DNA from: a virus
Direction: 5' to 3' (one strand)
Length of the DNA: 64,000 nucleotides
Virus record (IMG/VR): IMGVR_UViG_3300044615_000294
Span: 1-64,000 of that record
Positions 12,719 to 55,400 of this stretch are shown here, one piece after another. The translations under genes were made by a program, and so were the position numbers. The first letter of the stretch is position 1, and every line of letters begins with the position of its first letter. The notes beneath the pieces are model-generated. The model did not search any database. It saw only the letters and a program-made list of their open reading frames with translations, and was not told the DNA's origin.

Positions 12719-13960
12719 CTATCTACTTACTTCTTCCCAGTCCATTGATGCAAATACACTTTCATTATTTGTACCTGCTGTTAAAACTATTGTAAACTCA
12801 TAAGGAGTTCCTGTTAATCCATCTCTTTCTAATTGATTACTAAACAATGCAGCCTTTAATATATCAATAGATACACTTGTACTTGCTGTAGCTGTAAAAT
12901 ATCCTGATGCTATAATTCTTCCCCCTGCAAAAGCAGTTCCTGTTAAGTTATATTCTACAGAAGTATTCGCTCCTGCACTAATCCAAGTTCCACCTGTAGT
13001 TGTTCCTGATGATATTAATTGCCAATTGTAATTAGCAGATGTATTCCCTATTATAGAAACAGCTGTAGCTATAGCTATTCCATCTAATCTAGTTGATTTT
13101 AATCTTAATGAAACTATAGGATACAATGTGCCTGCCGTAGTTAAGGTCTTAGGTGTTGTTATTGGCGTACCTACAGCCTGTTGTAAGCCACGAAGTTCAT
13201 ATCCTCCTTCAGATAGTACAGTAGAACATATTTGTTTTAATCTACTTGATGAACCTGTAGCGGATGTATTTGTTATTTCATATCTAAGAGGCAATGATGC
13301 TGTAGTAATATATGTAGATGTGATTAAGTTAGCATGGTTGAATCTATGACAAACATAATAATTTCCATCTATAATAAATCCTATCCTAACTGTTCCCACA
13401 CCTAACCACTCCAAGTCCATAAATAAAATTTGAGCTTTTGTTAAATCAAGTGTAATACCACTAGGGCCTGATCCATCCATAGGGTCTACATTCCAATTTG
13501 CTTGAGCAACTGGATTATTTACTAATGATCCTGAAACAGAACTTCTTTCAACAAAACTTACTGCGCTGTCATTCTGTTCTAGATAATATCCATTAGATGC
13601 CCCATAATAACCCACTCTTTGTCTAAGCCCTGTCTTAGCAGCATTCATTACAAATGTATTAAGAACAAGAAGACTCTTACCAGGTTGATAAGAAAACACC
13701 TTTGTGGTTTCTCTAATAACTTCAGAACCTGATGCTGCTGTTACACCTAAGTTTATTAAACCTTCATTAGCATCAAATGTAGTAGACCCACTTACAGCAG
13801 TAGCTGTTGACCACAAATTATTATCTGCAAACCTATGACTAGAGTCAAATAATGTAAATGGTTCACTTACCCTAACTCTACCAAATGCATCTGTAAGCAT
13901 TGGGTATTGTGCAAGAATGTCATTAGAACCTGAACCTCCTATGGAAACTATAGTACTCAT
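12719..13960 (-). CDS. virion structural (baseplate/fibre) protein
   Basis: The 413-residue protein opens with MSTIVSIGGSGSNDILAQYP and then DAFGRVRVSEPFTLFDSSHRF (about 23-43), a segment I recall from virion proteins of many aquatic tailed phages. The rest is beta-rich with long Ser/Thr/Gly stretches. It probably forms part of the baseplate or a receptor-contacting fibre. It lies in the appendage cluster, between two small beta-rich genes. Confidence 0.7.
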   Translation of the reverse strand: MSTIVSIGGSGSNDILAQYPMLTDAFGRVRVSEPFTLFDSSHRFADNNLWSTATAVSGSTTFDANEGLINLGVTAASGSEVIRETTKVFSYQPGKSLLVLNTFVMNAAKTGLRQRVGYYGASNGYYLEQNDSAVSFVERSSVSGSLVNNPVAQANWNVDPMDGSGPSGITLDLTKAQILFMDLEWLGVGTVRIGFIIDGNYYVCHRFNHANLITSTYITTASLPLRYEITNTSATGSSSRLKQICSTVLSEGGYELRGLQQAVGTPITTPKTLTTAGTLYPIVSLRLKSTRLDGIAIATAVSIIGNTSANYNWQLISSGTTTGGTWISAGANTSVEYNLTGTAFAGGRIIASGYFTATASTSVSIDILKAALFSNQLERDGLTGTPYEFTIVLTAGTNNESVFASMDWEEVSR

Positions 13961-18731: not shown

Positions 18732-19178
18732 TTATTTTCTTGAGAAGAAGTTCTTCTTTGGTGCTTCTACCTTGGTAGTCTTTAGTTTCTCAATAATCTT
18801 GTTTGCTTCTTCTTCAGCAAATCCAATTGCCTCTTCTTCTTTGTCTTTGATATTCCAGTTGTTTAGTAAAAGGCTCATGTGCATAGTTTCATGCATAACA
18901 GCTGTGGCTTTCTCTGTAGGACTATACTTCTTGAAAGTACCCATGTTCAAAAACAAGAATGGTTTGTATGGATCTTTAGCTGTTAGCTTCTTATCCGCGG
19001 GATCATAGTTAGTCCACCCATATATGTAAACACCATTGCCCTTAGTCTTGTCTACTTCTTCAGCTTGAGCATCCTGACGATTTAAACCATGCATTTCCGG
19101 GACATTGTAATAGTCAAATATCTCAGTGGCATCATTACCAATGAGTACTATATACTTGCCCATGTCAATCTTCTTCAT
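18732..19178 (-). CDS. putative zinc metallopeptidase (HETMH)
   Basis: The 148-residue protein has a helix with AVMHETMHMSLLL (HExxH at residues 96-100) followed 16-17 residues later by a Glu-rich helix (DKEEEAIGFAEEEANKII) that can supply the third zinc ligand. This is the minimal architecture of a small gluzincin-like protease. There is no signal peptide, so it would act in the host cytoplasm or in the virion. The C-terminus is basic (KKNFFSRK). Confidence 0.65.
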   Translation of the reverse strand: MKKIDMGKYIVLIGNDATEIFDYYNVPEMHGLNRQDAQAEEVDKTKGNGVYIYGWTNYDPADKKLTAKDPYKPFLFLNMGTFKKYSPTEKATAVMHETMHMSLLLNNWNIKDKEEEAIGFAEEEANKIIEKLKTTKVEAPKKNFFSRK

Positions 19179-19193
19179 ATACTAATATACAAA

Positions 19194-19319
19194 TTATTTT
19201 GCACACTTACTATAGGCATCACACTTCTTAGTAGACTTACATCCCTGCATCATGTAGCCAATAGCAACTCCTACACATACACCTAATACATATAGGATAA
19301 ATAGTTTCCATTTTTCCAT
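19194..19319 (-). CDS. 41-residue membrane or lipoprotein-like peptide (CDAY type)
   Basis: A short frame from ATG 19319 gives MEKWKLFILYVLGVCVGVAI followed by GYMMQGCKSTKKCDAYSKCA. The hydrophobic N-terminus acts as a signal anchor, and the tail CKSTKKCDAYS resembles the CASGHHCDAYG tail encoded at 23535-23678. I infer a small envelope-directed peptide. It is the first gene of the minus-strand accessory unit, next to the divergent junction. Confidence 0.5.
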   Translation of the reverse strand: MEKWKLFILYVLGVCVGVAIGYMMQGCKSTKKCDAYSKCAK

Positions 19320-19340
19320 ATAACAAATATAACACAAATA

Positions 19341-19374
19341 ACAAAGGCCCGGGCTTTCAACTCCAGACCTTTGT
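19341..19374. repeat. inverted repeat at the divergent junction
   Basis: Seven-base arms (19341-19347 ACAAAGG, 19368-19374 CCTTTGT) flank a 20-nt centre with a GC-rich CCCGGGC core. There is no T-run on either side, so it is not a clear terminator. It may be an operator or leader hairpin of the minus-strand unit. Confidence 0.4.
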
Positions 19375-19382
19375 GCTATTTA

Positions 19383-19725
19383 TTAACCCTTAAAAATAAC
19401 ATGACAAATATAAAATTAAATTTTTAAATTCCAAACGGGGGTAAAATTATTTTATTGAAGAGGATCTGGAGGGTGATGCTACAGACACCCCCGGGGGCCG
19501 CGCCAAACTGGGTACACCCCCCATAAATCTGAGGCAGCAATGTCATATTCTAGGTGCAAAAACAAAAAATATTCTACCAGGAAAAATATGTTAACCCATA
19601 CATGCTAGGTTACATGCTATGTAGTATAGTATATATAGTATATGTATATCTAATATGTGTTGTGTCAAGATCTATGCTTGCCGCTGTGCTACATCAATCT
19701 ATCTATGTATGTATATGTAATACAG
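19383..19725. other. gene-free divergent region with GC-only palindrome
   Basis: No supported gene lies between the minus-strand block and the first plus-strand gene. The stretch contains the 10-bp GC-only palindrome CCCCCGGGGG (19488-19497) inside a GC-rich patch of about 40 bp, then AT-rich sequence with repeated TAG/TAT steps and TATGTATATG runs. It could hold divergent promoters or a replication origin, but no iterons were seen. Confidence 0.45.
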
Positions 19726-19741
19726 TAACTGTGTCATACTA
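19726..19741 (+). promoter_or_regulatory. early element 1
   Basis: TAACTGTGTCATACTA, 24 bp before the ATG at 19766. It is the first copy of the repeated early element. Confidence 0.7.
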
Positions 19742-19765
19742 TTCATAACCATTAAAACATTTATC

Positions 19766-19996
19766 ATGAAGATTTACTTTGCACTTATCACAGATTACTT
19801 AGGAAAACCTGTTCAACAATTAGCATACACTGCTACTGCTAAACACTCTGCATTCTTAGCACAAGAATACATTGACCATGTTCCACCTGCTTGCGGATTT
19901 ACAATATGCAAGAAATATGTAGATGCAAAACAAATAGCTAAGCTCCTTAACCAAGGGGCTTATGCCATACTCATAGTAACTGTGTTATACTATTAA
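19766..19996 (+). CDS. small early protein
   Basis: The 76-residue protein (MKIYFALITDYLGKPVQQLA...) has a compact alpha/beta look in its first 60 residues, including KHSAFLAQEYIDHVPPACG. Its last residues, VTVLYY, are encoded by the next copy of the early element, so the C-terminus may be a by-product of the promoter. It is the first gene rightward from the divergent junction. The function is unknown; position and promoter suggest immediate-early host takeover. Confidence 0.6.
   Translation: MKIYFALITDYLGKPVQQLAYTATAKHSAFLAQEYIDHVPPACGFTICKKYVDAKQIAKLLNQGAYAILIVTVLYY
19977..19992 (+). promoter_or_regulatory. early element 2
   Basis: TAACTGTGTTATACTA, 25 bp before the ATG at 20018. It lies inside the 3' end of the preceding gene. 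Confidence 0.7.
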
Positions 19997-20017
19997 TAAA
20001 CTTTAAAACTAAATACC

Positions 20018-20275
20018 ATGGACAAAGAAACTTTATACAAAGTAGTTGCTATGCTTGATGCAAGATACCAAGAGGCAGAAACATTTTTAGAAGATAATGA
20101 TTTAAATGATTTAGACTTTAATTATGTGCAAGGTTCCAAATTTGCACTTGCCGAATTCAAAGACCATTTACAAAAGGTTATTTATGCTGATGTATATGAC
20201 TCTGAACCACCAACTGAGTTTTGGGAACCAAGAAGACCAAGTGCTGATGAGTTAGAAGATGAGCTGCCTTTTTAA
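20018..20275 (+). CDS. small early acidic protein with SSB-like C-terminal tip
   Basis: The 85-residue protein starts MDKETLYKVVAMLDARYQEA and shares spaced residues with the next gene (MDxxTLxxVVAxxDA and HLQKxIxADV), so the two are tandem paralogues. It ends in a Pro-rich acidic tail, ADELEDELPF. A terminal D/E-x-LPF tip mimics the SSB C-terminus that recruits replication and repair proteins. It is driven by early element 2, and a wobble-containing hairpin (20261-20268 with 20276-20283) surrounds its stop. Confidence 0.65.
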   Translation: MDKETLYKVVAMLDARYQEAETFLEDNDLNDLDFNYVQGSKFALAEFKDHLQKVIYADVYDSEPPTEFWEPRRPSADELEDELPF

Positions 20276-20296
20276 GGTGGCTCATTACAAATATAA

Positions 20297-20312
20297 TAAC
20301 TATGTTATACTA
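20297..20312 (+). promoter_or_regulatory. early element 3
   Basis: TAACTATGTTATACTA, one change from consensus, 25 bp before the ATG at 20338. Confidence 0.68.
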
Positions 20313-20337
20313 CTAATAAAATTTAAAACTAAATACT

Positions 20338-20535
20338 ATGGACACAAAAACTTTAATTGACGTAGTTGCAAGAATTGATGCAATGATAGAGTACTGTAAT
20401 TACACTGCCGTTAGTGAGGATTGGATAGAAGACTACGGTAATGGCTACAAAGACTCTTTAAAAGAGTTAAGTGAGCATCTACAAAAGGGTATAGATGCTG
20501 ATGTAGCTGCAATGGAAACAAACATGGGGATGTAA
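20338..20535 (+). CDS. small early protein, paralogue of the upstream gene
   Basis: The 65-residue protein (MDTKTLIDVVARIDAMIEYC...) aligns by eye with the 20018-20275 product over most of its length, including the segment HLQKGIDADV, but lacks the acidic LPF tail. Its stop codon falls in the loop of its own terminator. Gene, early element and spacing were probably duplicated together. The function is unknown. Confidence 0.62.
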   Translation: MDTKTLIDVVARIDAMIEYCNYTAVSEDWIEDYGNGYKDSLKELSEHLQKGIDADVAAMETNMGM

Positions 20536-20547
20536 CAATCCCCTTTT
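20526..20547 (+). terminator. intrinsic terminator with stop codon in loop
   Basis: GGGGAT (20526-20531) pairs with ATCCCC (20538-20543); TTTT follows. The TAA stop (20533-20535) is in the 6-nt loop. Confidence 0.75.
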
Positions 20548-20552
20548 CATTA

Positions 20553-20568
20553 TAACTGTGTCATACTA
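20553..20568 (+). promoter_or_regulatory. early element 4
   Basis: TAACTGTGTCATACTA, identical to copy 1, 25 bp before the ATG at 20594. Confidence 0.7.
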
Positions 20569-20593
20569 CTAATAACCATTAAAATATAAAGTC

Positions 20594-20779
20594 ATGATTA
20601 AAACTATTCAGTATGTTTCTTTAAGTATCCTGTTAACAATCTTTCTAGAAGGTTTGTTAACTATGGGTTGGGCGTTTAACTTCAACAAGTATGGAGCATT
20701 TGCTTGGTTAGTTCAAGCAATTATACTTACTACAGTTGTTACAACAGCATTAAGGATTAGGCAAGAACAAGGGGATTAA
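20594..20779 (+). CDS. small early two-helix membrane protein
   Basis: The 61-residue product has two hydrophobic segments (about 5-25 and 36-52), the second followed by a basic tail (RIRQEQGD). It would insert into the host inner membrane early in infection. It has its own early element and a strong terminator. No family is recognised; superinfection exclusion is one possibility. Confidence 0.6.
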   Translation: MIKTIQYVSLSILLTIFLEGLLTMGWAFNFNKYGAFAWLVQAIILTTVVTTALRIRQEQGD

Positions 20780-20794
20780 TTTCCCCTTGTTTTA
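20766..20794 (+). terminator. strong intrinsic terminator with stop codon in loop
   Basis: Ten-base perfect arms (20766-20775 and 20782-20791) enclose the loop TTAATT that holds the TAA stop (20777-20779). A T-rich end follows. Confidence 0.82.
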
Positions 20795-20801
20795 AATACA
20801 G

Positions 20802-20817
20802 TAACTGTGTTTTACTA
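20802..20817 (+). promoter_or_regulatory. early element 5
   Basis: TAACTGTGTTTTACTA, 25 bp before the ATG at 20843. Confidence 0.7.
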
Positions 20818-20842
20818 CTGTTAAACCATTAAATTATTTATT

Positions 20843-21004
20843 ATGTTAGTACAAAGTATTATTGCTCTTATTAGAGCTGAAATCATTAAGTCAGGACAAA
20901 AACCTGATAGCAAGTATCTTAACTCATTAACCAAGTTAAAGAGAAAAGACTTGTATGACCTACTCAATTCCTATAAACAGGAAAACAAGCTTATGGTTGA
21001 TTAA
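20843..21004 (+). CDS. 53-residue early protein
   Basis: The frame MLVQSIIALIRAEIIKSGQK ... NKLMVD lies exactly between an early element (25 bp upstream) and a hairpin terminator that begins at its stop codon, so it is very likely a gene despite its size. It is helical, basic in the middle (KLKRKDLYDLL) and without a signal peptide; a small DNA- or protein-binding helix bundle fits. The function is unknown. Confidence 0.6.
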   Translation: MLVQSIIALIRAEIIKSGQKPDSKYLNSLTKLKRKDLYDLLNSYKQENKLMVD

Positions 21005-21022
21005 GGGGGAAACCCCTTTTTT
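21003..21022 (+). terminator. intrinsic terminator with GAAA loop
   Basis: AAGGGG (21003-21008) and CCCCTT (21013-21018) close a GAAA tetraloop, followed by a T-run to 21022. The first arm overlaps the stop codon of the upstream gene. Confidence 0.8.
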
Positions 21023-21032
21023 ATTTAATACA

Positions 21033-21048
21033 TAACTGTGCTTTACTA
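21033..21048 (+). promoter_or_regulatory. early element 6
   Basis: TAACTGTGCTTTACTA, 18 bp before the ATG at 21067, the shortest spacing of the set. Confidence 0.66.
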
Positions 21049-21066
21049 ATCTTAAAATTTAAAACT

Positions 21067-21249
21067 ATGATTGCAAAACTTATCTTTACTTGGTACCTAC
21101 TAACAGGTACAGTTCAACCTGTAGACAATGTTGACGGAAGAACAATCTATGCTATGCCTGATTCTAATATAGAGTATGCTTATGAAGCAGAACTCATAGA
21201 GTATATAGAGACAGGAACATTTGAATACAATGAAGACTTGGAGGATTAA
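21067..21249 (+). CDS. small early acidic protein
   Basis: The 60-residue protein begins with a short hydrophobic stretch (MIAKLIFTWYLLTG) and ends very acidic (EYIETGTFEYNEDLED). The start could be an uncleaved anchor or part of a small beta fold. A short hairpin (GAGGA 21241-21245 with TCCTC 21251-21255) holds the stop in its loop, without a T-run. The function is unknown. Confidence 0.58.
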   Translation: MIAKLIFTWYLLTGTVQPVDNVDGRTIYAMPDSNIEYAYEAELIEYIETGTFEYNEDLED

Positions 21250-21262
21250 TTCCTCTGAGTCT

Positions 21263-21278
21263 TAACTGTGTCTTACTA
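21263..21278 (+). promoter_or_regulatory. early element 7
   Basis: TAACTGTGTCTTACTA, 23 bp before the ATG at 21302. Confidence 0.7.
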
Positions 21279-21301
21279 TTATTAATTTAAAACTATTTAC
21301 T

Positions 21302-21583
21302 ATGAACAATTTAAAACCTTTCCATTCTCATGACTGTGAGAAATGCACACACTTAACATCTATATCTAAAGATGATTTAGAATATGATTTGTACTTCTGT
21401 ACAGGGGGCTTTGATGATGAGCCTTATTGCCATACTGTTATAGCAAGGTTTGGTGAATATGGAGCTTACATGTCAGGATTAGAGTTTTCAGATAAAGGTC
21501 CACTTAAAGAAGCTGCTATGCTTGCAATAGAAGCAGGACTCTTAGACCATGAAGTTTGGGTTGATCTAACTAGAAGAGATTGA
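21302..21583 (+). CDS. small early protein with His/Cys cluster
   Basis: The 93-residue protein begins MNNLKPFHSHDCEKCTHLTS; His8, His10, Cys12, Cys15 and later Cys33 and Cys43 could bind zinc. The following DLYFC, TVIARFGEYGAYMSG and AAMLAIEAGLLD segments match my memory of a small conserved phage family without an assigned function. It has its own early element and a terminator directly after the stop. Confidence 0.65.
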   Translation: MNNLKPFHSHDCEKCTHLTSISKDDLEYDLYFCTGGFDDEPYCHTVIARFGEYGAYMSGLEFSDKGPLKEAAMLAIEAGLLDHEVWVDLTRRD

Positions 21584-21584
21584 T

Positions 21585-21603
21585 AGGGGAGTAATCCCCT
21601 TTT
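21585..21603 (+). terminator. intrinsic terminator
   Basis: AGGGGA (21585-21590) pairs with TCCCCT (21595-21600) over a 4-nt loop GTAA; T-run follows. It starts one base after the stop codon at 21581-21583. Confidence 0.78.
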
Positions 21604-21639
21604 AACCTTCTGTAAATAAAAACAATTAAACTATATACT

Positions 21640-21711
21640 ATGATAACAGCAATTCTTTGGGGATTTGTATTCTTGTTGGGATACATTAAGTACTGGTTGA
21701 TAAGGGGGTAA
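21640..21711 (+). CDS. 23-residue membrane peptide (candidate)
   Basis: An ATG with an A/T-rich leader opens MITAILWGFVFLLGYIKYWL IRG, and the TAA lies in the loop of a terminator hairpin, the same design as in neighbouring genes. It would be a single hydrophobic helix. No early element is visible upstream, which weakens the case. Many such minimal membrane peptides are missed by gene finders. Confidence 0.4.
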   Translation: MITAILWGFVFLLGYIKYWLIRG

Positions 21712-21728
21712 TTCCCCTTTTCTTTTTT
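21702..21728 (+). terminator. intrinsic terminator with stop codon in loop
   Basis: AAGGGG (21702-21707) pairs with CCCCTT (21714-21719); the TAA of the 23-residue frame is in the loop. A long T-rich run (TTTTCTTTTTTT) follows. Confidence 0.8.
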
Positions 21729-21734
21729 TGAAAA

Positions 21735-21876
21735 GTTAGCCAAGGAGTGTTAAGTATCCACACGGTGGAGCAAGTAGACTTTGGTACTGATAATCAGCCA
21801 CTTACAAAATGTGATGGTTTACCCAAAATACCCTCACACTAGTCCACCACACTTTTAGAGCTTCGCGTCTTTTTTA
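21735..21876 (+). ncRNA. candidate small structured RNA
   Basis: No frame is supported here. Nested pairing is possible: GGTGGA with TCCACC around AGTGT/ACACT, and an inner TGTGA/TCACA helix enclosing GGTTTACC. The stretch ends in a bulged hairpin (AGAGC-TTC-GC-G-TCT, about 21857-21870) followed by six T, as at the end of an RNA. No promoter was identified. This is weak, sequence-only evidence. Confidence 0.35.
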
Positions 21877-21892
21877 TAACTGTGTTCTACTA
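21877..21892 (+). promoter_or_regulatory. early element 8
   Basis: TAACTGTGTTCTACTA, 41 bp before the ATG at 21934. It lies in a 46-bp segment (21858-21903) that recurs with six changes at 22280-22325. Confidence 0.7.
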
Positions 21893-21933
21893 CTATTGTT
21901 GTTTTATTTATTAACCCATTAAAATTATTAAAA

Positions 21934-22221
21934 ATGGAAAAAATTGTAAGTGGTATTTTGGTTTCTTGTTCTGACAATGCTAAGGCTAATGTTAATGGTA
22001 CTCAGTACTACAACTGCACCGTTGAGTATAACGGGGAACAGTTCAGTGCTATTATGTACTCTACTGTTTATGACCGTGGCTTTACAATAGGCAGTACTGT
22101 TAACTTCAGTGTTAAAGTTACTGATGCTGCAACAGGTGACGTTATATTATCTGTGTTAGGTGCAGGTGCTAAACGTGCTACTGCTAATGCATTTGGCATT
22201 GAACTTCCTGCTATTGCATAG
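21934..22221 (+). CDS. small early beta-rich protein, possible OB-fold
   Basis: The 95-residue protein begins MEKIVSGILVSCSDNAKANV and shows alternating hydrophobic strands (YYNCTVEYNGEQFSAIMY, GFTIGSTVNFSVKVTDAATG, DVILSVLGAG). The strand order and GS turn suggest an OB-fold or small beta barrel, as in ssDNA-binding proteins, but key aromatic positions are not clear. It has its own early element and a good terminator. Its codons look less A/T-biased than those of its neighbours. Confidence 0.6.
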   Translation: MEKIVSGILVSCSDNAKANVNGTQYYNCTVEYNGEQFSAIMYSTVYDRGFTIGSTVNFSVKVTDAATGDVILSVLGAGAKRATANAFGIELPAIA

Positions 22222-22234
22222 TAGGTTCCGTATT

Positions 22235-22272
22235 AAACAGTGTGTGTCTACCAAGGCATGCACTGTTTTTTT
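22235..22272 (+). terminator. intrinsic terminator
   Basis: AAACAGTG (22235-22242) pairs with CACTGTTT (22261-22268); a T-run to 22272 follows. The outer GTATT and AATAC can extend the stem. Confidence 0.75.
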
Positions 22273-22298
22273 AATACAGGAGCTACGCGTCTTTCTTT

Positions 22299-22314
22299 TA
22301 ACTGTGTTTTACTC
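22299..22314 (+). promoter_or_regulatory. early element 9
   Basis: TAACTGTGTTTTACTC. No ATG gene begins within 200 bp, so it may drive the leader or an RNA in 22315-22552. Confidence 0.6.
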
Positions 22315-22552
22315 CTCTTGTTGTTAGTTAACACCGGTCTACAACGCATTAACCCGGTCAACAGCTTTAAACACTTATGGATTAAAATAAATTCCGGAAT
22401 AAGTTAGTTTAAATAAGTGTATGTAACTAACTGATTATTAACCCCTCTTTATATCCTTACCTAATTATCTTACTGTATTTTACTATACTAGTATAGTATA
22501 GTTAAGGATTTTATATAGCTAACTTGTTACTTAACCCTTAATACATTTAACT
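22315..22552 (+). other. structured gene-free leader region
   Basis: No gene is supported. ACACTTAT (22371-22378) can pair with ATAAGTGT (22413-22420), which lies in the loop of a second stem AGTTAGTT (22402-22409) / AACTAACT (22425-22432), an H-type pseudoknot arrangement. ATTCCGGAAT (22391-22400) is a palindrome, and ACTATACTAGTATAGT (22482-22497) is a 16-bp perfect palindrome flanked by TCCTTA and TAAGGA. The set suggests a regulatory leader or RNA. Confidence 0.45.
22470..22485 (+). promoter_or_regulatory. early element 10 (variant)
   Basis: TTACTGTATTTTACTA, two changes from consensus, 67 bp before the ATG at 22553 and touching the 16-bp palindrome at 22482-22497. Confidence 0.5.
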
Positions 22553-22780
22553 ATGCATAGAGCTACTTACTTCCTATATGGAGTTCTATTCTCTCTTACA
22601 GTATATACTGTGTTTTACTCTATAGGAAAGACAGAGAGAAAGACTCCGGTCAAAGGTATAGACCGAGAATATTATTTAGAAGTTTCCCAAGATAGTATTT
22701 GGGTTGAATCTAGACAAGGTCAAATTTATAGTGGTAAATATACAGACTTAGACAGTCTTATTACCATTGATAACTTATAA
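22553..22780 (+). CDS. small early membrane-anchored protein
   Basis: The 75-residue protein begins with a hydrophobic segment (YFLYGVLFSLTVYTVFYSIG, about 6-25), followed by a polar domain with alternating residues (YYLEVSQDSIWVESRQGQIY). It would be anchored in the inner membrane with a small beta-rich periplasmic part. A further early-element-like string lies in its codons at 22605-22620, so an internal start cannot be excluded. The function is unknown. Confidence 0.55.
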   Translation: MHRATYFLYGVLFSLTVYTVFYSIGKTERKTPVKGIDREYYLEVSQDSIWVESRQGQIYSGKYTDLDSLITIDNL

Positions 22781-22784
22781 TTAA

Positions 22785-23160
22785 TTGCAATATAGTTTCT
22801 AACAGCCAGTAATGGTCATCCGAAGGTAGAGCTATAAGTTGAGAAGGATATACTTATCTAGGTATTGCAACCTTGTGAGAGTACAGATGGTGTAGAGATT
22901 GTAGTATAATGGACGCATTATATGAGGCTCTATATTCTATACAGGGGTCAGTATAGTCTTAAATTTTGTAACCTGAAGAGGGTTTTATAATACTAATCCT
23001 AGCAATGAGATACCCCATTGTTAGGTATTAATGCACCATTCCTGATTCCCAAGGTCAGGCAGTTGTAATAGACCAATATCGGGAATAGAAAGGCTTCTCA
23101 ACAGCACACTCTAATCTATTACAACTGAGTGCAGAGGGATAATCAACTTATAGAAACTTT
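22785..23160 (+). ncRNA. large structured RNA candidate (about 370 nt)
   Basis: No frame is supported. The ends pair: 22794-22801 with 23151-23158 (8 bp) and 22832-22842 with 23143-23153 (11 bp, perfect). Inside are a 13-bp helix 23060-23072/23115-23127, a 10-bp hairpin 22998-23007/23016-23025, hairpins 22905-22911/22916-22922, 22937-22942/22951-22956 and 23041-23045/23055-23059, and an 8-bp helix 22785-22792/22863-22870. Some helices compete, so alternative folds or pseudoknots are possible. It lies 1.1 kb before a tRNA gene. It could be a stand-alone RNA or the leader of the next gene. Confidence 0.6.
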
Positions 23161-23184
23161 ATTTATCAACTTAAAATTACACTT

Positions 23185-23529
23185 ATGAACAAAACAGTCC
23201 CTTTTGGTTACCATTCATTTGGTAGTCACACTCTGATTAAACTTAACATGAATCTTACATTTGAAGATGCTGTCGAACTTAGAAAACTATATGATTTCAA
23301 TGTCATGTACTGTAATAGTAAAAAGAAACCACATCTCTATAGAATAGAAGGTGTTATTTCATGGAATAACAGTGATGGAGAAAAATATATTAGTTGGTTT
23401 GAAAAACTAAAAGTTTGCCGAATTAATGCTAAGATGCACAAACTTGCATGTAAGAAACAAGCACTGTTAGATAGTGCATTAGGTATGGAAAATTATATCC
23501 AACCTGTTGATTTAGATTTACCCTTTTAA
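23185..23529 (+). CDS. hypothetical protein with SSB-like C-terminal tip
   Basis: The 114-residue protein begins MNKTVPFGYHSFGSHTLIKL and has a basic middle (YCNSKKKPHLYRIEG; KLKVCRINAKMHKLACKKQA). It ends QPVDLDLPF, a terminal acidic LPF tip like that of the early gene at 20018-20275. I infer possible binding to host or phage partners that recognise SSB tails. It starts 25 bp after the structured RNA, so that RNA may control it. Confidence 0.62.
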   Translation: MNKTVPFGYHSFGSHTLIKLNMNLTFEDAVELRKLYDFNVMYCNSKKKPHLYRIEGVISWNNSDGEKYISWFEKLKVCRINAKMHKLACKKQALLDSALGMENYIQPVDLDLPF

Positions 23530-23534
23530 AATTT

Positions 23535-23678
23535 ATGATTATGAAAACAATTGGAATTGTATTATTATGGTTTGTATTTATTGGCATACTAGCATCTTTT
23601 GTTAGTTGTGCCAGCGGTCACCACTGTGACGCTTATGGTCAGACAAAGCAAGTAGAAACTAAAACTGTAAGCAAATGA
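23535..23678 (+). CDS. 47-residue lipoprotein-like peptide (CDAYG type)
   Basis: The peptide starts MIMKTIGIVLLWFVFIGILA, then SFVSC, a lipobox-like end, and CASGHHCDAYG. It is likely exported and possibly lipidated. The CDAYG tail resembles that of the 41-residue peptide at 19194-19319 and, from memory, short envelope peptides of Bacteroidota. Its stop overlaps the next start (ATGA), so the two are translationally coupled. Confidence 0.55.
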   Translation: MIMKTIGIVLLWFVFIGILASFVSCASGHHCDAYGQTKQVETKTVSK

Positions 23679-23929
23679 TTTACAGTAAATTAAGAAAATT
23701 AGAACAGCAAAAGAGGGATATACAGTCCCTCATTATTGCTGCATACCAGTCAAGTGCAGATCCTGATGTTGTTATGATTAGAGTATCTGATTTACAGACA
23801 GACTTAGAATCTGTTAATGACGAGATACAGATGGAAGAAACATTTGTAAGACTCAAATGGGGTCTTGCATTCTTTGTTGTTGCATCATTGATATTAATTA
23901 TTGTTACACTATTTAAAACTTTATTATGA
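23675..23929 (+). CDS. C-tail-anchored coiled-coil protein
   Basis: The 84-residue protein is a helical hairpin or coiled coil (KLRKLEQQKRDIQSLIIAAY; RVSDLQTDLESVNDEIQ) followed by one transmembrane helix near the C-terminus (WGLAFFVVASLILIIVTLF, about 62-80). The bulk would face the cytoplasm. It overlaps its neighbours at both ends by 4 bases. The function is unknown. Confidence 0.6.
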   Translation: MIYSKLRKLEQQKRDIQSLIIAAYQSSADPDVVMIRVSDLQTDLESVNDEIQMEETFVRLKWGLAFFVVASLILIIVTLFKTLL

Positions 23930-24216
23930 TTAAGCTTTTATTATTTATTTTATTGATTGCCAATACTGCATTTTCTGGAGTAGCAGATGATGGTATGTAT
24001 AACGGATTAACAAAGTCCGAGAAAAAGTTTGTAAAAAATATAGAGATTATGCAGCAAGAACATATTGTTAGTATAAAAAGACAAAGTCCTAGCTATATAT
24101 TGGTAGTTTTCCCAACTGCTAAATATTTACTAAATACAGCTACAGGATTTGTATCAAATGTTTGGATTCTCAGTGATGATGATCTTACTTGGGAAGAAAT
24201 GGGACCAGAATATTAA
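23926..24216 (+). CDS. secreted hypothetical protein
   Basis: The 96-residue protein has a clear Sec signal peptide (MIKLLLFILLIANTAFSGVA, cleavage near residue 17-20). The mature part is basic, then acidic, with an aromatic C-terminus (LTWEEMGPEY). It would act in the periplasm. It ends the small envelope-protein cluster before the tRNA gene. Confidence 0.6.
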   Translation: MIKLLLFILLIANTAFSGVADDGMYNGLTKSEKKFVKNIEIMQQEHIVSIKRQSPSYILVVFPTAKYLLNTATGFVSNVWILSDDDLTWEEMGPEY

Positions 24217-24280
24217 TTATATTTGCGTGCACCTCCAACCGCAGTAAGCAGACAAAAGGTGTAATAGTCTGTTTAATATT

Positions 24281-24354
24281 GGTCCTGTAGCTCAGCTGGA
24301 TAGAGCAACTGCCTTCTAAGCAGTAGGTCTTTGGTTCGAATCCAAACAGGATCA
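24281..24354 (+). tRNA. tRNA-Arg (anticodon UCU)
   Basis: A full cloverleaf can be drawn: acceptor stem GGTCCTG/CAGGATC (one G-T pair), D-arm GCTC/GAGC, anticodon stem ACTGC/GCAGT with loop CTTCTAA (anticodon TCT at 24315-24317), T-arm TTTGG-TTCGAAT-CCAAA and discriminator A. CCA is not encoded. It would read AGA, which is frequent in these genes. Confidence 0.93.
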
Positions 24355-24378
24355 CTGTTATTAACCAAAATCACTTAT

Positions 24379-24606
24379 ATGGATTACAATGAAAAACTTA
24401 TAACATCTGTCATGGGATTTGACTTTAAAGTTTCTATTAAAGATGAGCATAACCAGTTGGTTAAACAAGGTATAAAATATACCATACAGAGAAAACAAGG
24501 TACTATAAATGCATTTAAGCAAAGAGTAACTGATAAGAAATGGTTTACCCATTTTAATGATGGTCTATATAACAAGATATTAGACTACAGAAAAAACAAT
24601 GACTAG
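24379..24606 (+). CDS. hypothetical protein
   Basis: I chose the ATG at 24379 because the longer frame would begin inside the tRNA gene. The 75-residue product (MDYNEKLITSVMGFDFKVSI...) is basic, with a KVSIKDEHNQLVKQGIKYTI segment suggesting a small alpha/beta domain. The gene is followed by a terminator 50 bp downstream. The function is unknown. Confidence 0.58.
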   Translation: MDYNEKLITSVMGFDFKVSIKDEHNQLVKQGIKYTIQRKQGTINAFKQRVTDKKWFTHFNDGLYNKILDYRKNND

Positions 24607-24657
24607 ATACTTAAGATAGTGTATTCCTGCGAATATGCTTTTCCTGACCAAATAATA

Positions 24658-24679
24658 GGGGGATTAAGTTCCCCCTTTT
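24658..24679 (+). terminator. intrinsic terminator
   Basis: GGGGG (24658-24662) pairs with CCCCC (24671-24675) over an 8-nt loop; TTTT follows. The stretch to 24763 holds A/T-rich sequence without a visible gene. Confidence 0.78.
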
Positions 24680-24763
24680 ATTGTTAGCTATATATTGCAT
24701 TATATTATTTTTCAGAAGCAATTGTACTTGATTTTATCACGTATTTTTACTACAGAATAAATA

Positions 24764-25036
24764 ATGTTATATCAGTTACCAAACGGGAAGGTTGTGCATC
24801 TAAGCATAGAGGAATTTCTAGATCTTACAGATCTTGATATACAGTTCTTAATGTCTATAGATTATGGTGAACATATCATAGACCCTTTTACCGGTTCTGC
24901 TGTTGAGAAAAACACCAGAGAAAAATATATTGATACAGACTTTCTTCCACTAGAAGATTATGACCTTAATGATATACCATCAGAGGATTTACCATTTGAT
25001 GATATCATTGACTTAGAGGATCCACTGGATAACTAG
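24764..25036 (+). CDS. acidic hypothetical protein
   Basis: The 90-residue protein is very acidic in its last third (DYDLNDIPSEDLPFDDIIDL), containing an internal EDLPF that echoes SSB-tail-like tips elsewhere in the window. The first part (MLYQLPNGKVVHLSIEEFLD) looks like a compact alpha/beta start. The last codons enter a hairpin (25035-25062). The function is unknown; DNA mimicry is possible given its charge. Confidence 0.58.
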   Translation: MLYQLPNGKVVHLSIEEFLDLTDLDIQFLMSIDYGEHIIDPFTGSAVEKNTREKYIDTDFLPLEDYDLNDIPSEDLPFDDIIDLEDPLDN

Positions 25037-25062
25037 TATTGCTAATCGCGATATGCAATACT
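25035..25062. repeat. 28-bp near-perfect palindrome
   Basis: AGTATTGC (25035-25042) pairs with GCAATACT (25055-25062), and the centre holds ATCGCGAT (25045-25052). Only the TA/AT steps break the symmetry. There is no T-run, so an operator or protein-binding site is more likely than a terminator. A run of TTTA repeats (25120-25141) precedes the next gene. Confidence 0.5.
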
Positions 25063-25153
25063 AACCACTTATCACTTAGCATGAGTAACTAATGATATAG
25101 TAAATCTACACTCAACAATCTATTTATTTATTTATTTATTAAAACCAAGAATT

Positions 25154-25627
25154 ATGAATTCAACAGTTAAAGTTGTAGCTGATGCTACTACAGGTGCAGT
25201 AGTTAGAGTTTCTGAAACCAATCCAGAGTTTGCTTCTGTAAGATTAGAGCAAGTACGTACAGTAATTGGAAACAATAACTTTATTGAGCGTAAAACAGTT
25301 TCTACCTTATTACAAGGTGCAACTGCTGACTTAACAGCAATGGGCTTTTATGCAGGTCAAGAGTTACCAGGTACTATTGTTATTGAAGAGTCTTTAACTC
25401 CATTTAACAAAAAGAATCCTGAGCGTGATCTTAAAATTGCTGGTGAGACAGGAATTATCTGTAGTGTAGGTGGTCAGCCAATTTACCGAAGAGCAGTATT
25501 TTCTACTGCATCTAATGCAACAGATACACTTATTAAGCATGATAATGTAGAGCAATTGCGTTCTGCATATTCTTCAGCAAATAGTTCTGCTATCAGAAAT
25601 GCGGCAGGACAAGACTTTAATATCTAA
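25154..25627 (+). CDS. conserved hypothetical protein (possibly abundant)
   Basis: The 157-residue protein begins MNSTVKVVADATTGAVVRVS. It is beta-rich with a central segment FYAGQELPGTIVIEESLTPF and a flexible Ser/Asn/Ala-rich end. It has its own leader and a strong terminator, a monocistronic layout that often means high expression. A DNA-binding OB-fold is conceivable, but no motif decides it. Confidence 0.62.
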   Translation: MNSTVKVVADATTGAVVRVSETNPEFASVRLEQVRTVIGNNNFIERKTVSTLLQGATADLTAMGFYAGQELPGTIVIEESLTPFNKKNPERDLKIAGETGIICSVGGQPIYRRAVFSTASNATDTLIKHDNVEQLRSAYSSANSSAIRNAAGQDFNI

Positions 25628-28444: not shown

Positions 28445-28699
28445 ATGGAAGAAAGTGTAACACATAAGATTATTCTGCATAATGATGACAAGAACACATT
28501 TGCATATGTAATGGCTTGTCTTATAAGATTTTGTGAACACCATCCTACACAGGCAGAGCAGTGTGCTTTGCTTGTGCATGAGATGGGAAAGTGTACAGTA
28601 AAGTATGGAGATTTTCTTACTATGTTGGAAATTTCACAAAGTCTGCGTAATTTAGATCTCAAAACAACAGTAGAGGAAAATGCGGGCAATATGTATTGA
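28445..28699 (+). CDS. clpS: ClpS-like N-degron adaptor
   Basis: The 84-residue protein aligns well with ClpS: HKIILHNDDKNTFAYVMACL (Asn13-Asp14-Asp15, the N-degron pocket), then QAEQCALLVHEMGKC (His45, Gly48, Lys49). ClpS delivers substrates with destabilising N-termini to ClpAP or ClpCP. The short form lacks the long flexible N-tail that ClpS uses to enter the unfoldase, so a block or redirection of host proteolysis is possible. The sequence most resembles my recollection of bacteroidotal ClpS, suggesting acquisition from the host. Confidence 0.85.
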   Translation: MEESVTHKIILHNDDKNTFAYVMACLIRFCEHHPTQAEQCALLVHEMGKCTVKYGDFLTMLEISQSLRNLDLKTTVEENAGNMY

Positions 28700-31753: not shown

Positions 31754-32610
31754 AGAAAGTTACTAGAAAAACTATGAAGATTAGACCAAGCGGGAGGAGC
31801 ACTGATTTCATTGCTCCTTCTTTTGGTCATGGCTGTTTGTATAACTGTTCTTACTGTTATATGAAGAGACATAAGCCGGAAGGATTATCTATAGCAACAA
31901 ATCCTATGGATATTCTGACAGCAATTAACAATCATGTTTGGTTTGCTGATGTTGAGAAGCCTAATCAAACAGGAGAATATATTACTTATGACATCTCATG
32001 CAATGAAGACTTTGCTTTACATGCTAAGTATCATGACTGGGAAAGAATATTTGAGTATTTTAGAGATCATCCACTTGCTATGGGTTCATTTGCTACTAAG
32101 TATGTGAATAAAGAATTTCTTAAGTTTAATCCACAAGGTAAGATTAGAATAAGGTTTAGTCTTATGCCTGAGCATTTAAGACAAATCTTAGAACCTAATA
32201 CTTCAACTATACCAGAAAGAATTAAGGCTGTTAAAAAATTTCAAGATGCTGGTTACGATGTTCATTTAAATTTTAGTCCGGTTATAGTAGAAAAAGATTG
32301 GTTGTTTTACTATGGATTTTTATTTAAAGAAATTGCAATTGCTGCTAAAGATATATTTAAGTGGAATGAAGGTGTCAAAGCAGAAGTAATATTTCTTACA
32401 CATAATGCAAAAAAACATGAGTATAATTTGGAACATAAAATTCCTGGCGAGGACCTTATTTGGAAGCCAGAAATCCAAGAAACCAAAATATCCCAGTATG
32501 GAGGAGAGAACATTAGATATGTATCATCAGACAAATCCAGATATATTGAAGAATTTAGAAAACTTCATGCTGATATTATACCCTGGAACACCATTAGGTA
32601 TATTTTCTAA
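31747..32610 (+). CDS. radical SAM protein, spore photoproduct lyase-like
   Basis: The 287-residue protein has the [4Fe-4S] motif GHGCLYNCSYCYMKRH (Cys30, Cys34, Cys37) near the N-terminus and the compact partial barrel of SPL-family radical SAM proteins (FVYAPSFG-like GHGC start, RIRFSLMPEHL, GYDVHLNFSPVIV). Such enzymes generate a 5'-deoxyadenosyl radical; the SPL branch reverses a thymine lesion. Its substrate here is unknown. The start at 31747 is TTG; ATG at 31774 is an alternative. Confidence 0.78.
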   Translation: MVEKVTRKTMKIRPSGRSTDFIAPSFGHGCLYNCSYCYMKRHKPEGLSIATNPMDILTAINNHVWFADVEKPNQTGEYITYDISCNEDFALHAKYHDWERIFEYFRDHPLAMGSFATKYVNKEFLKFNPQGKIRIRFSLMPEHLRQILEPNTSTIPERIKAVKKFQDAGYDVHLNFSPVIVEKDWLFYYGFLFKEIAIAAKDIFKWNEGVKAEVIFLTHNAKKHEYNLEHKIPGEDLIWKPEIQETKISQYGGENIRYVSSDKSRYIEEFRKLHADIIPWNTIRYIF

Positions 32611-52430: not shown

Positions 52431-52448
52431 TCTTCCCCTTATTTTTTT
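52416..52448. terminator. bidirectional intrinsic terminator
   Basis: AAGGGGAAGA (52416-52425) pairs perfectly with TCTTCCCCTT (52431-52440). Plus-strand transcripts meet a T-run (52442-52448) and minus-strand transcripts the complement of the A-run (52413-52417). It separates the convergent plus block and the giant minus genes. Confidence 0.85.
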
Positions 52449-55400
52449 ACTTTAAATTTTCAAACATTTGGTATTTCTTAATAGCCCAAATAGCACCTTC
52501 ATCAAAGTTTTCTTGACCTTCAATACCAAGATCTATTACATTTTTACCTTTAAGACCATACATTGAACCAAGGTGATTCCAAAGCTTGTATTGTCCTTGT
52601 CTTTGCCACTTATATGGTCCAACATCTTGGCTATATCTTGCTTCTCCCTCATTACCCGCTCCAATATTATAAAGATCTTGACCTATCTTAGTGTACAATA
52701 CAACTGTATTATCTAATGCTATTGTCGTTGTTTTAAAATATTTTGTTCCTTGCTCTGGAAGATAGACAGGTATAAAAGATTCATTTTCCATTTTAGTCAT
52801 TATCAAAAGATAAAGTAAATGATTCTCAAGTTGACCTTGTGTTGTAGTTGCTCTTGCTTTTAATTTTTTCCACTTATCTTCATCATCTGGATCATAACCA
52901 AAATACCATGAACCAATAATCATTGCTAATAAGAAGTATCCAACATTTTCAATAATTACTTTTTTGGCTGCAGCTTTTTCATCTTCAGTCATTATTGCGG
53001 TATCTTTACCTACTGATCTAATGAGTCTTAATGCATTTTGCATAGTATTCATGTAATAACCTTTATCTAAAGTATTAGTGTCCCAGTTATATACATACCC
53101 ACCTAGATTACCTTTATCAGTATCTATTTGGTATTTATCAAGAAACATTCCTGTAGCAAATCTTTTATAAAAAGTAAATGCGCGGTACCCTAAATATTTT
53201 TCAGCTTGTGGTGTATCAAATACATCCATTAAACCTGTTGTCTTTTTCTGTGCAGATTGTAATAAGAATTTCATATTTAAAAATCCTTCCATGTTACCCA
53301 CAGTGATTTTATCTCCAGGCTCAAGTTTTGATATATCAGTTATACCACTTCTTTTTTTAACTTGTTCAGCTGTTATATTATATCTTTTAGCAATGCTTTC
53401 AAAAGTATCTCCTCTCTTATACTCATGCTCTACTTTTTTATAGTCATACATTGGATCAATACCATCTTTTAATTTTAAAATTCCTCTATCATCTGTTTCC
53501 CATGCATCAGCATAAGCTATATCTTCAGAAGAACCAGCTTGTGGAATGTATTTGTTATACATCATGCCCCAGAACATCTCTAGAGCAGCCTCAAGTTCCA
53601 TTGTTCTTCTAAAGTCATAAGCATATGTTAAATCTGCTAAGTCTTTTAGTTTTGATCTTGATGATGATTTACCAAAGTTTTTACCAAACATTGCTGTAGG
53701 ATCCATCCTTTCTACTAACTGTATGTCAGCTGATTTAATTCCTTGCTCATATACATCTTTAAATACCCAGAACATTGCAGATTGTTTGGCTTTTGCATAC
53801 CCCTTTGCTAATGACATTGGTGTAACATTTTTACCACCTGCTGCATATATAGCATTTTGATAAAGCATCCCCCAACGGTTTTTAATAGCTGACTGTGGAT
53901 CAAATGCAATAAATGCTCTTGAAGATCTTCTAAATAATCCTTGAATAATTTTAGTTAACCATGCATTTTCTTCATCAAATGTTCCAGTAGTTTTACCATA
54001 AAAGATTTTTTTAACTTGATGTTTTACTGCACCTAATCTTCTATTATCATCTTTAGATAAGAACTTCCTTTTACGTGTTCTTTGAAATTCTTGTTGATCA
54101 ATATTTGTTAAATCTTTAATACCATTTTGAGAAAGGACACTTTCCAAAGCTTTAGCAATTGGTTCATTTTCCAATAATACTTTTTGTTCTTCTAAGGATA
54201 AAAGATAATCATACATCCCCCGTAATACATCTTTAGAAACACGTTTTTGATCTAAATTGTATAAGCCTCTAATTCTAACTTTATTAACTGGTCTTCCATC
54301 TAAGTCTGTTGGAACCAAATTAAAATTAACATCATGATTAAATCCAAACTCTGCATCATCTACATCTTTACCAAACCATGTTTTCCATAAACCTTTAAAT
54401 CCACCAACTCTATCTATCAAATTTTCTTTAGCTTCTCCAGACGCAACATATTCTAAATTACCTCTTTTTCTAAACCTTGGCATTTCTAAGTACAATCTAC
54501 TTGAAACAGGTTTATTTTTTTGAATTTGAATCATAGATTCAGTTATAGCATTTAATAAATCAAATTCTGGCCCACCAGCATTTTTCATTTCTTCATATTC
54601 TTCATTTTGATATTTTTTATCAAATGCTGAATTTGGATCACCAATATTATACTCTCTAGGTAAATAGTTACCTTTATTATCTACAATAGTACCTACATAA
54701 TTATCCCAACTTTCACCTCTTGGTATTGTTAAAAATTCACTTTTTATTCTACTCTTAGTATATTTACCAGCTGGTCTTCCTATAATTTTTCTTTCTGTCT
54801 TAGTTAAAGGGTCAATGATTTCTGTTACAACATAATGATCAGGATTGTTTGGAATCTTCATTGTCCAGGCTGCAATTCTAAAGTTTTTAATTACATTCCT
54901 ATTTAAGTCCACATCATATACTTCCTTTTGATAATGATTTCTACCATACCATTTTGCAAACTCTGGATTTTCTAAAGCTTTAACTAAATTTTCTCCATTT
55001 ATCCATTTATCTGCATTATCTGTAGTCATTTCAGGAAGTTCCATATCTCTTATAGCATAATTAAATGCTTCAAGATAATAGTCTGTTGGAATTTTACTTT
55101 CAAGTTCTCTTAATTCTGCAAATCTTGATTTAAGTGCTGCTAATTCTGCAGGAGTTAAACCCATCTCATTTTTAATAGAAAGGATTTCTGCATAATCTTT
55201 TCTTTCTTCTGGAGTTAATTGAGTTCCAGCAGCGGCTTTTGCAATATAAGAGTCATATCTAGATGTTTGATCTTTTGTTAATCCAGTTTTTCTATCAAAC
55301 TGTTCTTCCAATCTTACTATTTCATCTTCTATTTTCTTTAAAAGATTAATTTGTTCAGGAGAAAGGTTTAATCCATTAGGTTGCCCGTTAGCATCTGATG

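Follow-up and report, generated by a model that had tools for sequence, protein, structure and literature searches.

An array of repeated elements upstream of small genes in an apparently crAss-like phage genome: candidate promoters of the phage's own RNA polymerase

The array and its cassettes

We analysed a stretch of 64,000 nucleotides (hereafter the window, positions 1 to 64,000) of the IMG/VR virus record IMGVR_UViG_3300044615_000294, which counts 91,341 bases in its entirety. Between positions 19726 and 22314, a span of 2.6 kb, the 16-mer TAACTGTGTNNTACTA occurs nine times on the + strand, as six exact copies and three with a single mismatch. An initial annotation, made from the letters of this DNA, had reported these positions together with a variant at 22470, and had proposed the elements as recognition sites of an RNA polymerase (RNAP) encoded by the same phage. 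A mismatch scan and shuffled sequences bear out the positions, and the array of repeated elements is confirmed as real. Its copies are the following.

19726-19741, + strand: element 1, TAACTGTGTCATACTA, exact, 24 bp upstream of the ATG at 19766
19977-19992, + strand: element 2, exact, 25 bp upstream of the ATG at 20018, lying within the 3' end of the preceding open reading frame (ORF)
20297-20312, + strand: element 3, single mismatch (TAACTATGT), 25 bp upstream of the ATG at 20338
20553-20568, + strand: element 4, exact, 25 bp upstream of the ATG at 20594
20802-20817, + strand: element 5, exact, 25 bp upstream of the ATG at 20843
21033-21048, + strand: element 6, single mismatch (TAACTGTGC), 18 bp upstream of the ATG at 21067
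21263-21278, + strand: element 7, exact, 23 bp upstream of the ATG at 21302
21877-21892, + strand: element 8, exact, 41 bp upstream of the ATG at 21934
22299-22314, + strand: element 9, single mismatch (last base C), no convincing ORF next, the following DNA being conserved in relatives
22470-22485, + strand: degenerate copy, two mismatches, 67 bp upstream of the ORF at 22553; a similar copy exists in the relative G007 (L240)
22605-22620, + strand: degenerate copy, three mismatches, within the ORF at 22553-22780; a similar copy exists in G007; significance uncertain

Compared with 100 dinucleotide shuffles, the enrichment is strong as long as the copies are close to the consensus. With at most one mismatch, both strands of the window hold 9 copies where 0.10 is expected (shuffle maximum 1), and with at most two mismatches, 11 where 1.25 is expected (shuffle maximum 5), a single one of which, at 60126, lies beyond the array. 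At three mismatches the count is about that of chance (20 observed, 14.5 expected, 20 being reached by 9 of the 100 shuffles). Over the entire record, 11 copies with at most two mismatches are found on the forward strand and none on the reverse strand, ten of them inside the array; a control pattern, TAACTGTGTNNTACTA read backwards, gives two forward and no reverse matches. The motif is not equally common elsewhere or on the other strand; had it been so, this would have told against the proposal of the initial annotation by that annotation's own terms.

Sequence conservation extends beyond the 16-mer, as TAACTGTGTtnTACTAcTatTAA, and the downstream continuation reads cTatTAA. The re-measured distances between element end and ATG agree with those first proposed, 23 to 25 bp in six of the eight gene-linked copies and 18 and 41 bp in the two others. 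That each element precedes its own small gene holds for these eight copies, but not for those at 22299, 22470 and 22605. From 22470 to 22510, the degenerate element continues into an inverted repeat, TATACTAGTATAGTATAG, which is also found in G007.

The region is mostly a chain of cassettes, each made of an element, a leader, a gene and usually a hairpin. The eight cassette genes are listed below.

19766-19996, + strand: small gene 1, 76 amino acids (aa)
20018-20275, + strand: small gene 2, 85 aa
20338-20535, + strand: small gene 3, 65 aa
20594-20779, + strand: small gene 4, 61 aa
20843-21004, + strand: small gene 5, 53 aa
21067-21249, + strand: small gene 6, 60 aa; L358, whose element type differs, has a counterpart with all 60 aa the same
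21302-21583, + strand: small gene 7, 93 aa
21934-22221, + strand: small gene 8, 95 aa

None of ten small proteins (those of the eight cassette genes and of the ORFs at 22553 and 23185) has a Pfam match above cut-off, and their matches to PHROGs come only at E values of 0.039 or higher. Between 19300 and 23200, 13 terminator-like sites are listed, versus 2.0 in shuffles; 11 of the 13 are on the + strand, at six places, one of which is inside gene 4. The following hairpins are of this kind.

20526-20543, + strand: terminator-like hairpin closing gene 3
20771-20785, + strand: terminator-like hairpin closing gene 4
21003-21019, + strand: terminator-like hairpin 3' of gene 5, with its end 13 bp upstream of element 6
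21702-21720, + strand: terminator-like hairpin closing a 23-codon ORF (start 21640) that has no element
22235-22268, + strand: terminator-like hairpin 3' of gene 8, with its end 30 bp upstream of element 9

The 70 nucleotides upstream of seven of the nine elements contain a hairpin with a z-score below -2.2 (single-base shuffles), the 3' end of which lies 0 to 30 bp from the element and so leaves little room for a -35 box. No significant hairpin is present in the 70 nucleotides preceding elements 1 and 8.

In the noncoding stretches at 21722 and 22315, no RNA structure signal was found (z -0.11 each), and an Rfam scan of 19000-25500 returned tRNA only. Another noncoding stretch, 22781-23184, contains blocks of 90 to 177 nucleotides that are 100% identical to L355, L349, L240 and L363, relatives which have other early genes or elements; it has no Rfam match. 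A noncoding core of about 57 nucleotides (about 21755-21811), with no significant fold, is found by blastn in 25 loci with differing element types; it closely follows an element in L250/L350 and may be an early noncoding RNA. In L246 (G046) and L480 (G076), at about 5.9 to 6.5 kb, another repeated leader, like TTAACCTTTAAATCAGAATAGAATG, lies directly upstream of several ATGs.

The phage RNA polymerase and the genome around the array

The RNAP of crAss-like phages is unusual, and is injected in the phages studied so far. The present record looks like such a phage by its gene content: the first 13 matches of its TerL are crAss-like or uncultured gut phages (24 to 26% identity), with cr1_1, a Crassvirales member, at the top, and both portal and TerL have PHROG matches. 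Structural genes (- strand) are followed by the array, by replication genes (+ strand) and by giant ORFs of 2075, 3438 and 2231 aa (- strand), a layout that resembles those of cr1_1 and phi14:2. Given this layout and the timing in crAss001, where PMC8375218 describes transcription of early genes within 10 minutes, the small genes of the array are probably early. The gene at 12719-13960 was considered as a capsid gene and rejected, its top matches being structural proteins of HMO-2011 and cyanophages. Downstream of the array, 28445-28699 encodes a ClpS adaptor (PF02617) and 31774-32610 a radical SAM protein resembling spore photoproduct lyase (PF20903). Two ORFs of the RNAP block are positioned as follows.

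52447-58674, - strand: companion ORF of the RNAP block, 2075 aa
58680-64000, - strand: window part of the RNAP ORF, which runs to 68996 of the record (3438 aa), with the catalytic loop EIVAKSGADFDVDKL and a profile match to 6VR4

The 3438-aa ORF contains EIVAKSGADFDVDKL. A tblastn search with a segment of it found no named phage, so that a profile was needed to establish homology. Built from 20 sequences (this phage and 19 relatives), the profile matches 6VR4, a DNA-dependent RNA polymerase, with an E value of 2.4e-48 and an alignment spanning the DFDxDK loop; 6VR4 is the sole distinct PDB sequence at E values up to 10. The loop pattern is present in 30 of 31 RNAP stretches (this phage and 30 relatives), and lacking in G063. 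In phi14:2, the protein with the same catalytic loop is gp077, and the record annotation describes gp076-078 as structural by mass spectrometry. Judged by profile and loop, the 3438-aa ORF is homologous to the phi14:2 RNAP, and by analogy the polymerase would be carried in the virion and injected.

The C-terminal part of the same ORF, at about 58.9 to 59.3 kb, contains a NADAR domain (PF08719, E 3.8e-11, above cut-off). By eye, the stretch before it looks macro-like; this part of the protein is possibly an injected ADP-ribose hydrolase acting against a defence system.

Element arrays in relatives and co-variation with the polymerase

Early regions of relatives were collected from IMG/VR via the DNA polymerase, a structural gene, or the ferredoxin-like gene that adjoins the array. 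Arrays were then called with no preset motif, wherever a 16-mer family had four or more members located 14 to 46 bp upstream of an ORF start; this last condition was added because plain repeat families show on both strands. Arrays were found in 20 of the 41 ferredoxin-anchored regions (at least 3.5 kb long, and including near-duplicates such as L350/353/354/355, L359/361/362, L411/414/416 and L400-405), in none of the 41 on the opposite strand, and in none of 320 control strand-stretches, drawn from the two ends of 80 DNA polymerase loci on either strand. Among 20 stretches taken at guessed places, an array was seen at once in L240, L241, L242, L250 and L253, and later in L243 and L252; in the 13 others, most of which may not be early region, none was identified. 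The 16-mer itself matches exactly in at least 119 IMG/VR stretches, with one match each among the 80 matches listed, and these were left unused. A DNA-level search with the array among named phages gave nothing.

The element differs from one relative to another: GTACTGTGTNNTACTA in G007, ATACAACTTNTTACTA in G016, TACARCTTNNNACTNCTATGGA in G015 and G035, TACTTCTTNNTACTT in G013, AACCTCTCANNACTTG in G051, CAACTTYTATTGTA in G044, G052 and G053, CTARCCCTNAAC in G028 and G064, and TAACACCTTAAT in G055. Within a genome, the copies change in concert. Five close genomes share genes and carry four upstream-box types, namely TAACTGTG (this phage and L363), GTACTGTG (G007), TCACCTTG (L352, a contig of 4.6 kb) and TCCCCTTG (L358, 5.6 kb); the natural upstream boxes read TAACTGTGT (this phage), GTACTGTGT, TCACCTTGT and TCCCCTTGT. 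Each genome's own octamer is present in 8 copies here (the one at 20297 being an additional copy with a variant octamer), 11 in L363, 9 in G007, 5 in L352 and 7 in L358, and the three other types are at 0 copies in each. Corresponding cassettes (protein identity of at least 0.55) form 30 pairs, 26 of which join different types. In all 26, the upstream 9 bp differ by one to five bases, and TACTA is identical in 24; the patterns used for the pairs were type-specific, so that the absence of foreign types was checked separately. The gene at 21067 is an extreme case: compared with L358, its protein is identical over 60 aa and the 30 bp after the element are identical, yet five of nine upstream bases differ.

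The question arises as to what the element follows when it changes. For seven relatives, percent identities to this phage (RNAP catalytic region/DNA polymerase/ferredoxin-like protein) are 90/92/- for G007, 43/98/93 for G003, 43/92/97 for G013, 44/88/94 for G045, 43/-/95 for G064, 55/79/90 for G016 and 53/81/85 for G015. G003 thus has almost the same DNA polymerase (98%) and ferredoxin-like protein (93%), a very different RNAP (43%), and an element of another class.

Similarity matrices were compared by rank Mantel tests with label permutation, in which shared ancestry is not fully removed, starting from 31 genomes with RNAP stretches (this phage and 30 others), 15 of which had an element set in the first test. 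Over these 15, element similarity correlates with RNAP identity (rho 0.488, p 0.0002). With the ferredoxin-like gene, which sits 1 kb from the array, it does not: in a set of ten genomes, rho is 0.455 (p 0.0015) for RNAP and -0.053 (p 0.67) for ferredoxin. A set of ten genomes with DNA polymerase gives 0.522 (p 0.0001) for RNAP versus 0.134 (p 0.16) for DNA polymerase. The elements of G003 and G045 had been spotted by eye with a clade-mate's element in mind, and both genomes were left out in repeat tests. The RNAP correlation then stands at 0.504 (p 0.0018, n=13), also at 0.504 (p 0.005, n=11) when G007 and G053 are removed as well; in the DNA polymerase set (n=8) it is 0.602 (p 0.043), versus 0.339 (p 0.14) for DNA polymerase. 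Addition of three later genomes raises it to 0.649 (p 0.0001, n=18), or 0.705 (p 0.0001, n=16) leaving out the same two, and the nearest neighbour by RNAP is also the nearest by element in 11 of 16 cases. For ferredoxin, a set of 12 gives 0.63 (p 0.0001) for RNAP and -0.117 (p 0.81) for ferredoxin, and a set of ten after the later finds 0.67 (p 0.0002) and -0.266 (p 0.93). Element similarity therefore follows RNAP identity, and does not significantly follow the ferredoxin-like protein or the DNA polymerase. When alignment columns are split, the downstream block alone reaches 0.744 with RNAP.

A prediction was also derived solely from the RNAP tree and fixed before the arrays were seen: L457 and L458 should have a downstream block of the present type, near those of this phage and G016, and L459-L465 one of the TAC..CT..NNACT type. 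Three of the ten new contigs were examined; two bear the ferredoxin-like gene, and in the third (G084, of L465) the place was guessed. The 16-mer family search found an array in each, with consensus ATACAGCTTtttACTanTaTtAat in G076 (of L457), ATACAgCTTTttACTAaTatTaAt in G077 (of L458) and tnACCATTTTATAACTgatATTAAt in G084. G076 and G077 agree with the prediction if the first T of TACTA is relaxed, and G084 agrees in part.

Candidate promoters, rival explanations and known systems

As judged from sequence comparison, the elements are likely to be promoters of the phage's own two-barrel RNAP, a relative of the phi14:2 virion RNAP. The proposal of the initial annotation that they are candidate recognition sites of this enzyme gains support from the near-fixed spacing, the near-complete restriction to the array, the co-variation with RNAP and the homology to 6VR4. 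In the process we envisage, the RNAP would enter the cell together with the DNA, as its homologues suggest, and bind a compact element in which an upstream specificity box (TAACTGTGT) is followed by two free bases and the downstream block TACTAyTatTAA. The latter would probably be melted, RNA starting a few bases further on, and every RNA would consist of a short A-rich leader and one small gene. Most of these RNAs would end at the hairpin that directly precedes the following element, making the early region a row of single-gene cassettes. Structural genes would be left to the host RNAP via the TAnnTTTG promoter. If the polymerase were replaced or its specificity changed, the elements of the array would change together. 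Promoter function, reading of the elements by the RNAP unaided and the position of the transcription start are all predictions from these comparisons.

Several points weigh against this reading. Sixteen of the 31 genomes stayed out of the first test for want of an identified element set, their early region lying beyond the contig, not being located or showing no element; the element patterns behind the matrices were hand-written after the families had been seen; and near-duplicates are present among the genomes (G052/G053/G044, this phage and G007). In the ferredoxin set of eight, excluding G003 and G045, the RNAP correlation is only 0.366 (p 0.046; ferredoxin -0.21, p 0.82). By the ORF-start test, 21 of the 41 ferredoxin-anchored regions have no array, among them G003 and G045, with one or two CTAACCC-type elements, and regions where no element was spotted. 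Nor do the scanned early regions of crAss001, phi14:2, cr1_1 and Fpv20 show such an array: these regions, to which the ORF-start test was not applied, have no 16-mer family of more than six copies at three mismatches and none before genes, and the larger families that appear at four mismatches in the two of them tested are of low complexity. Other phage genes correlate with the element as well, the portal at 0.431 (p 0.0025) over 14 genomes, where RNAP reaches 0.48 (p 0.0004), and the companion 2075-aa ORF at 0.346 (p 0.005; 14 genomes), so that the catalytic ORF does not stand out in this test. Each partial correlation persists, RNAP given portal at 0.378 (p 0.0024) and portal given RNAP at 0.306 (p 0.021), or 0.373 (p 0.011) and 0.313 (p 0.047), respectively, when G003 and G045 are excluded. 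Finally, the upstream box tracks RNAP weakly (0.249, p 0.043; 0.225, p 0.11, excluding two genomes). A rapidly changing RNAP segment beyond the aligned catalytic region may recognise it, or another factor may do so.

The portal correlation and the weak tracking by the upstream half keep a separate specificity factor as an option. Such a factor, phage-encoded and injected or made very early, would bind the upstream half, and RNAP would contact the downstream block only, the elements being promoters or activator sites. This would account for the variation of the upstream half among genomes whose genes are nearly identical, for its poor correlation with RNAP next to the good one of the downstream block, and for the correlations with portal and companion ORF. 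However, a Pfam scan of 30 middle-region proteins, part of the record's total, revealed no sigma factor, just weak below-cut-off DnaA-C and ParB-like matches that could hint at DNA binding, and no Pfam family above cut-off was found in the ten small early-region proteins. We regard this alternative as unlikely. Another possibility is that the elements are operators, similar to the stoperators of Cluster A mycobacteriophages, for which PMC6550527 describes many near-identical repressor sites with motifs that differ between phages. Immunity groups would then change site and repressor together, and the likeness is real as far as near-identical asymmetric sites, mostly in one orientation and varying between relatives, are concerned. 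However, stoperators are genome-wide and repressor-bound, whereas the present sites are confined to the array (10 of 11 at two mismatches or fewer), follow the polymerase, lie one per cassette at a near-fixed distance from the ATG, mostly just 3' of a hairpin, and have no alternative TAnnTTTG promoter on the + strand. The family scans of the small proteins (Pfam and PHROGs) and of the 30 middle-region proteins (Pfam), with no search aimed at repressors, pointed to no repressor. A repressor role appears very improbable.

Lower still we place host RNAP promoters read by an unusual host sigma factor, in which case differences between phages would reflect differences between hosts. In our own reading, the downstream block, which is AT-rich (TACTAT, TATTGT, TAACCT), has some likeness to a loose -10 box. 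The elements are not the TAnnTTTG promoter, as the initial annotation had noted: none occurs on the + strand in 19700-22800. The host-type promoter is found on the other strand.

19405-19434, - strand: Bacteroidota-type promoter TTG-N19-TATATTTG, divergent from the array and directed at the structural genes, 30 of 30 positions identical in G003

As a point against the host explanation, G003 has this identical host-type promoter, yet its early element is of another class. Of 16 genomes, nine (0.62 expected), belonging to different element classes, have a divergent TTG-N16-22-TAnnTTTG no more than 450 bp before the first element, and seven lack the strict pattern. The hosts of these nine thus seem to offer one housekeeping promoter type while the elements differ. 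Moreover, arrays are uniform per genome, their upstream half differs between close relatives, and the elements co-vary with the phage RNAP. An RNA-level leader element, serving as a translation or processing signal before each small gene, could explain the near-fixed ATG spacing in most cassettes. However, spacings of 18 and 41 bp occur as well, copies precede stretches with no evident ORF (22299, and also in relatives), and the hairpin that directly precedes seven of nine elements, ending 0 to 30 bp before them, implies that any promoter would need to sit at the hairpin or beyond it; we give this explanation almost no credence.

Promoters of the phage RNAP, our preferred interpretation, have partial counterparts elsewhere. 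Phage N4 injects a polymerase whose early promoters are marked out by a small hairpin. The present elements would likewise be early promoters for an injected enzyme, if timing and injection are as we suppose. A hairpin promoter of the N4 type was rejected: the distance of the upstream hairpins varies, and elements 1 and 8 have no significant one before them. According to PMC10770324, Thermus phage P23-45 has a tail-fused virion RNAP to which a conserved motif is ascribed; the motif stands before several start sites, is kept in relatives having the virion RNAP and is missing in two lacking it. The likeness lies in such a recurring motif; unlike here, where the motif is read from DNA, those start sites were mapped, a special motif is found at seven terminators, in place of our ordinary-looking hairpins with T runs, and the strong differences of the motif between relatives, following RNAP, are a trait of the present system. 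Phage phi14:2 resembles the present phage in its homologous catalytic region with the DFDxDK loop, in giant ORFs that directly follow the replication genes and lie on the other strand, and in early genes running on one strand from a divergent point; it differs, as does crAss001, by the lack of a repeated element array of this kind in the early region scanned. The literature searched, which did not cover the original phi14:2 RNAP study, describes no promoter sequence for a crAss-like RNAP, and the parts of PMC8375218, PMC10136315 and PMC7886860 covered contain none. In crAss001 (L422), four similar repeats (around ACTTACTTCA) are found at about 96185-96760 of the record, upstream of the TROVE-domain gene gp96; some lie, by eye, beside tRNA-like sequence, and they are candidate Y-RNA-like partners of the TROVE protein.

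The pairs formed by this phage with G003 (DNA polymerase 98%, RNAP 43%) and with L358 (60-aa identity, re-coded upstream box) lead us to a more tentative idea, to which we give slightly less than even credit, that promoter identities are exchangeable. A matched polymerase and early-promoter pair would be swapped or re-coded among close relatives, and selection, perhaps to avoid cross-reading by co-infecting relatives or an element-sensing defence, would change all cassettes together, generating many orthogonal pairs. With polymerase and element both known in 18 genomes, the comparison provides a set of promoter candidates whose specificity is directly testable by template swaps. Arrays that differ in one short box per cassette, their genes being nearly the same, suggest that promoter identity is itself a trait that evolves, and might be a source of orthogonal RNAP-promoter pairs for Bacteroidota.

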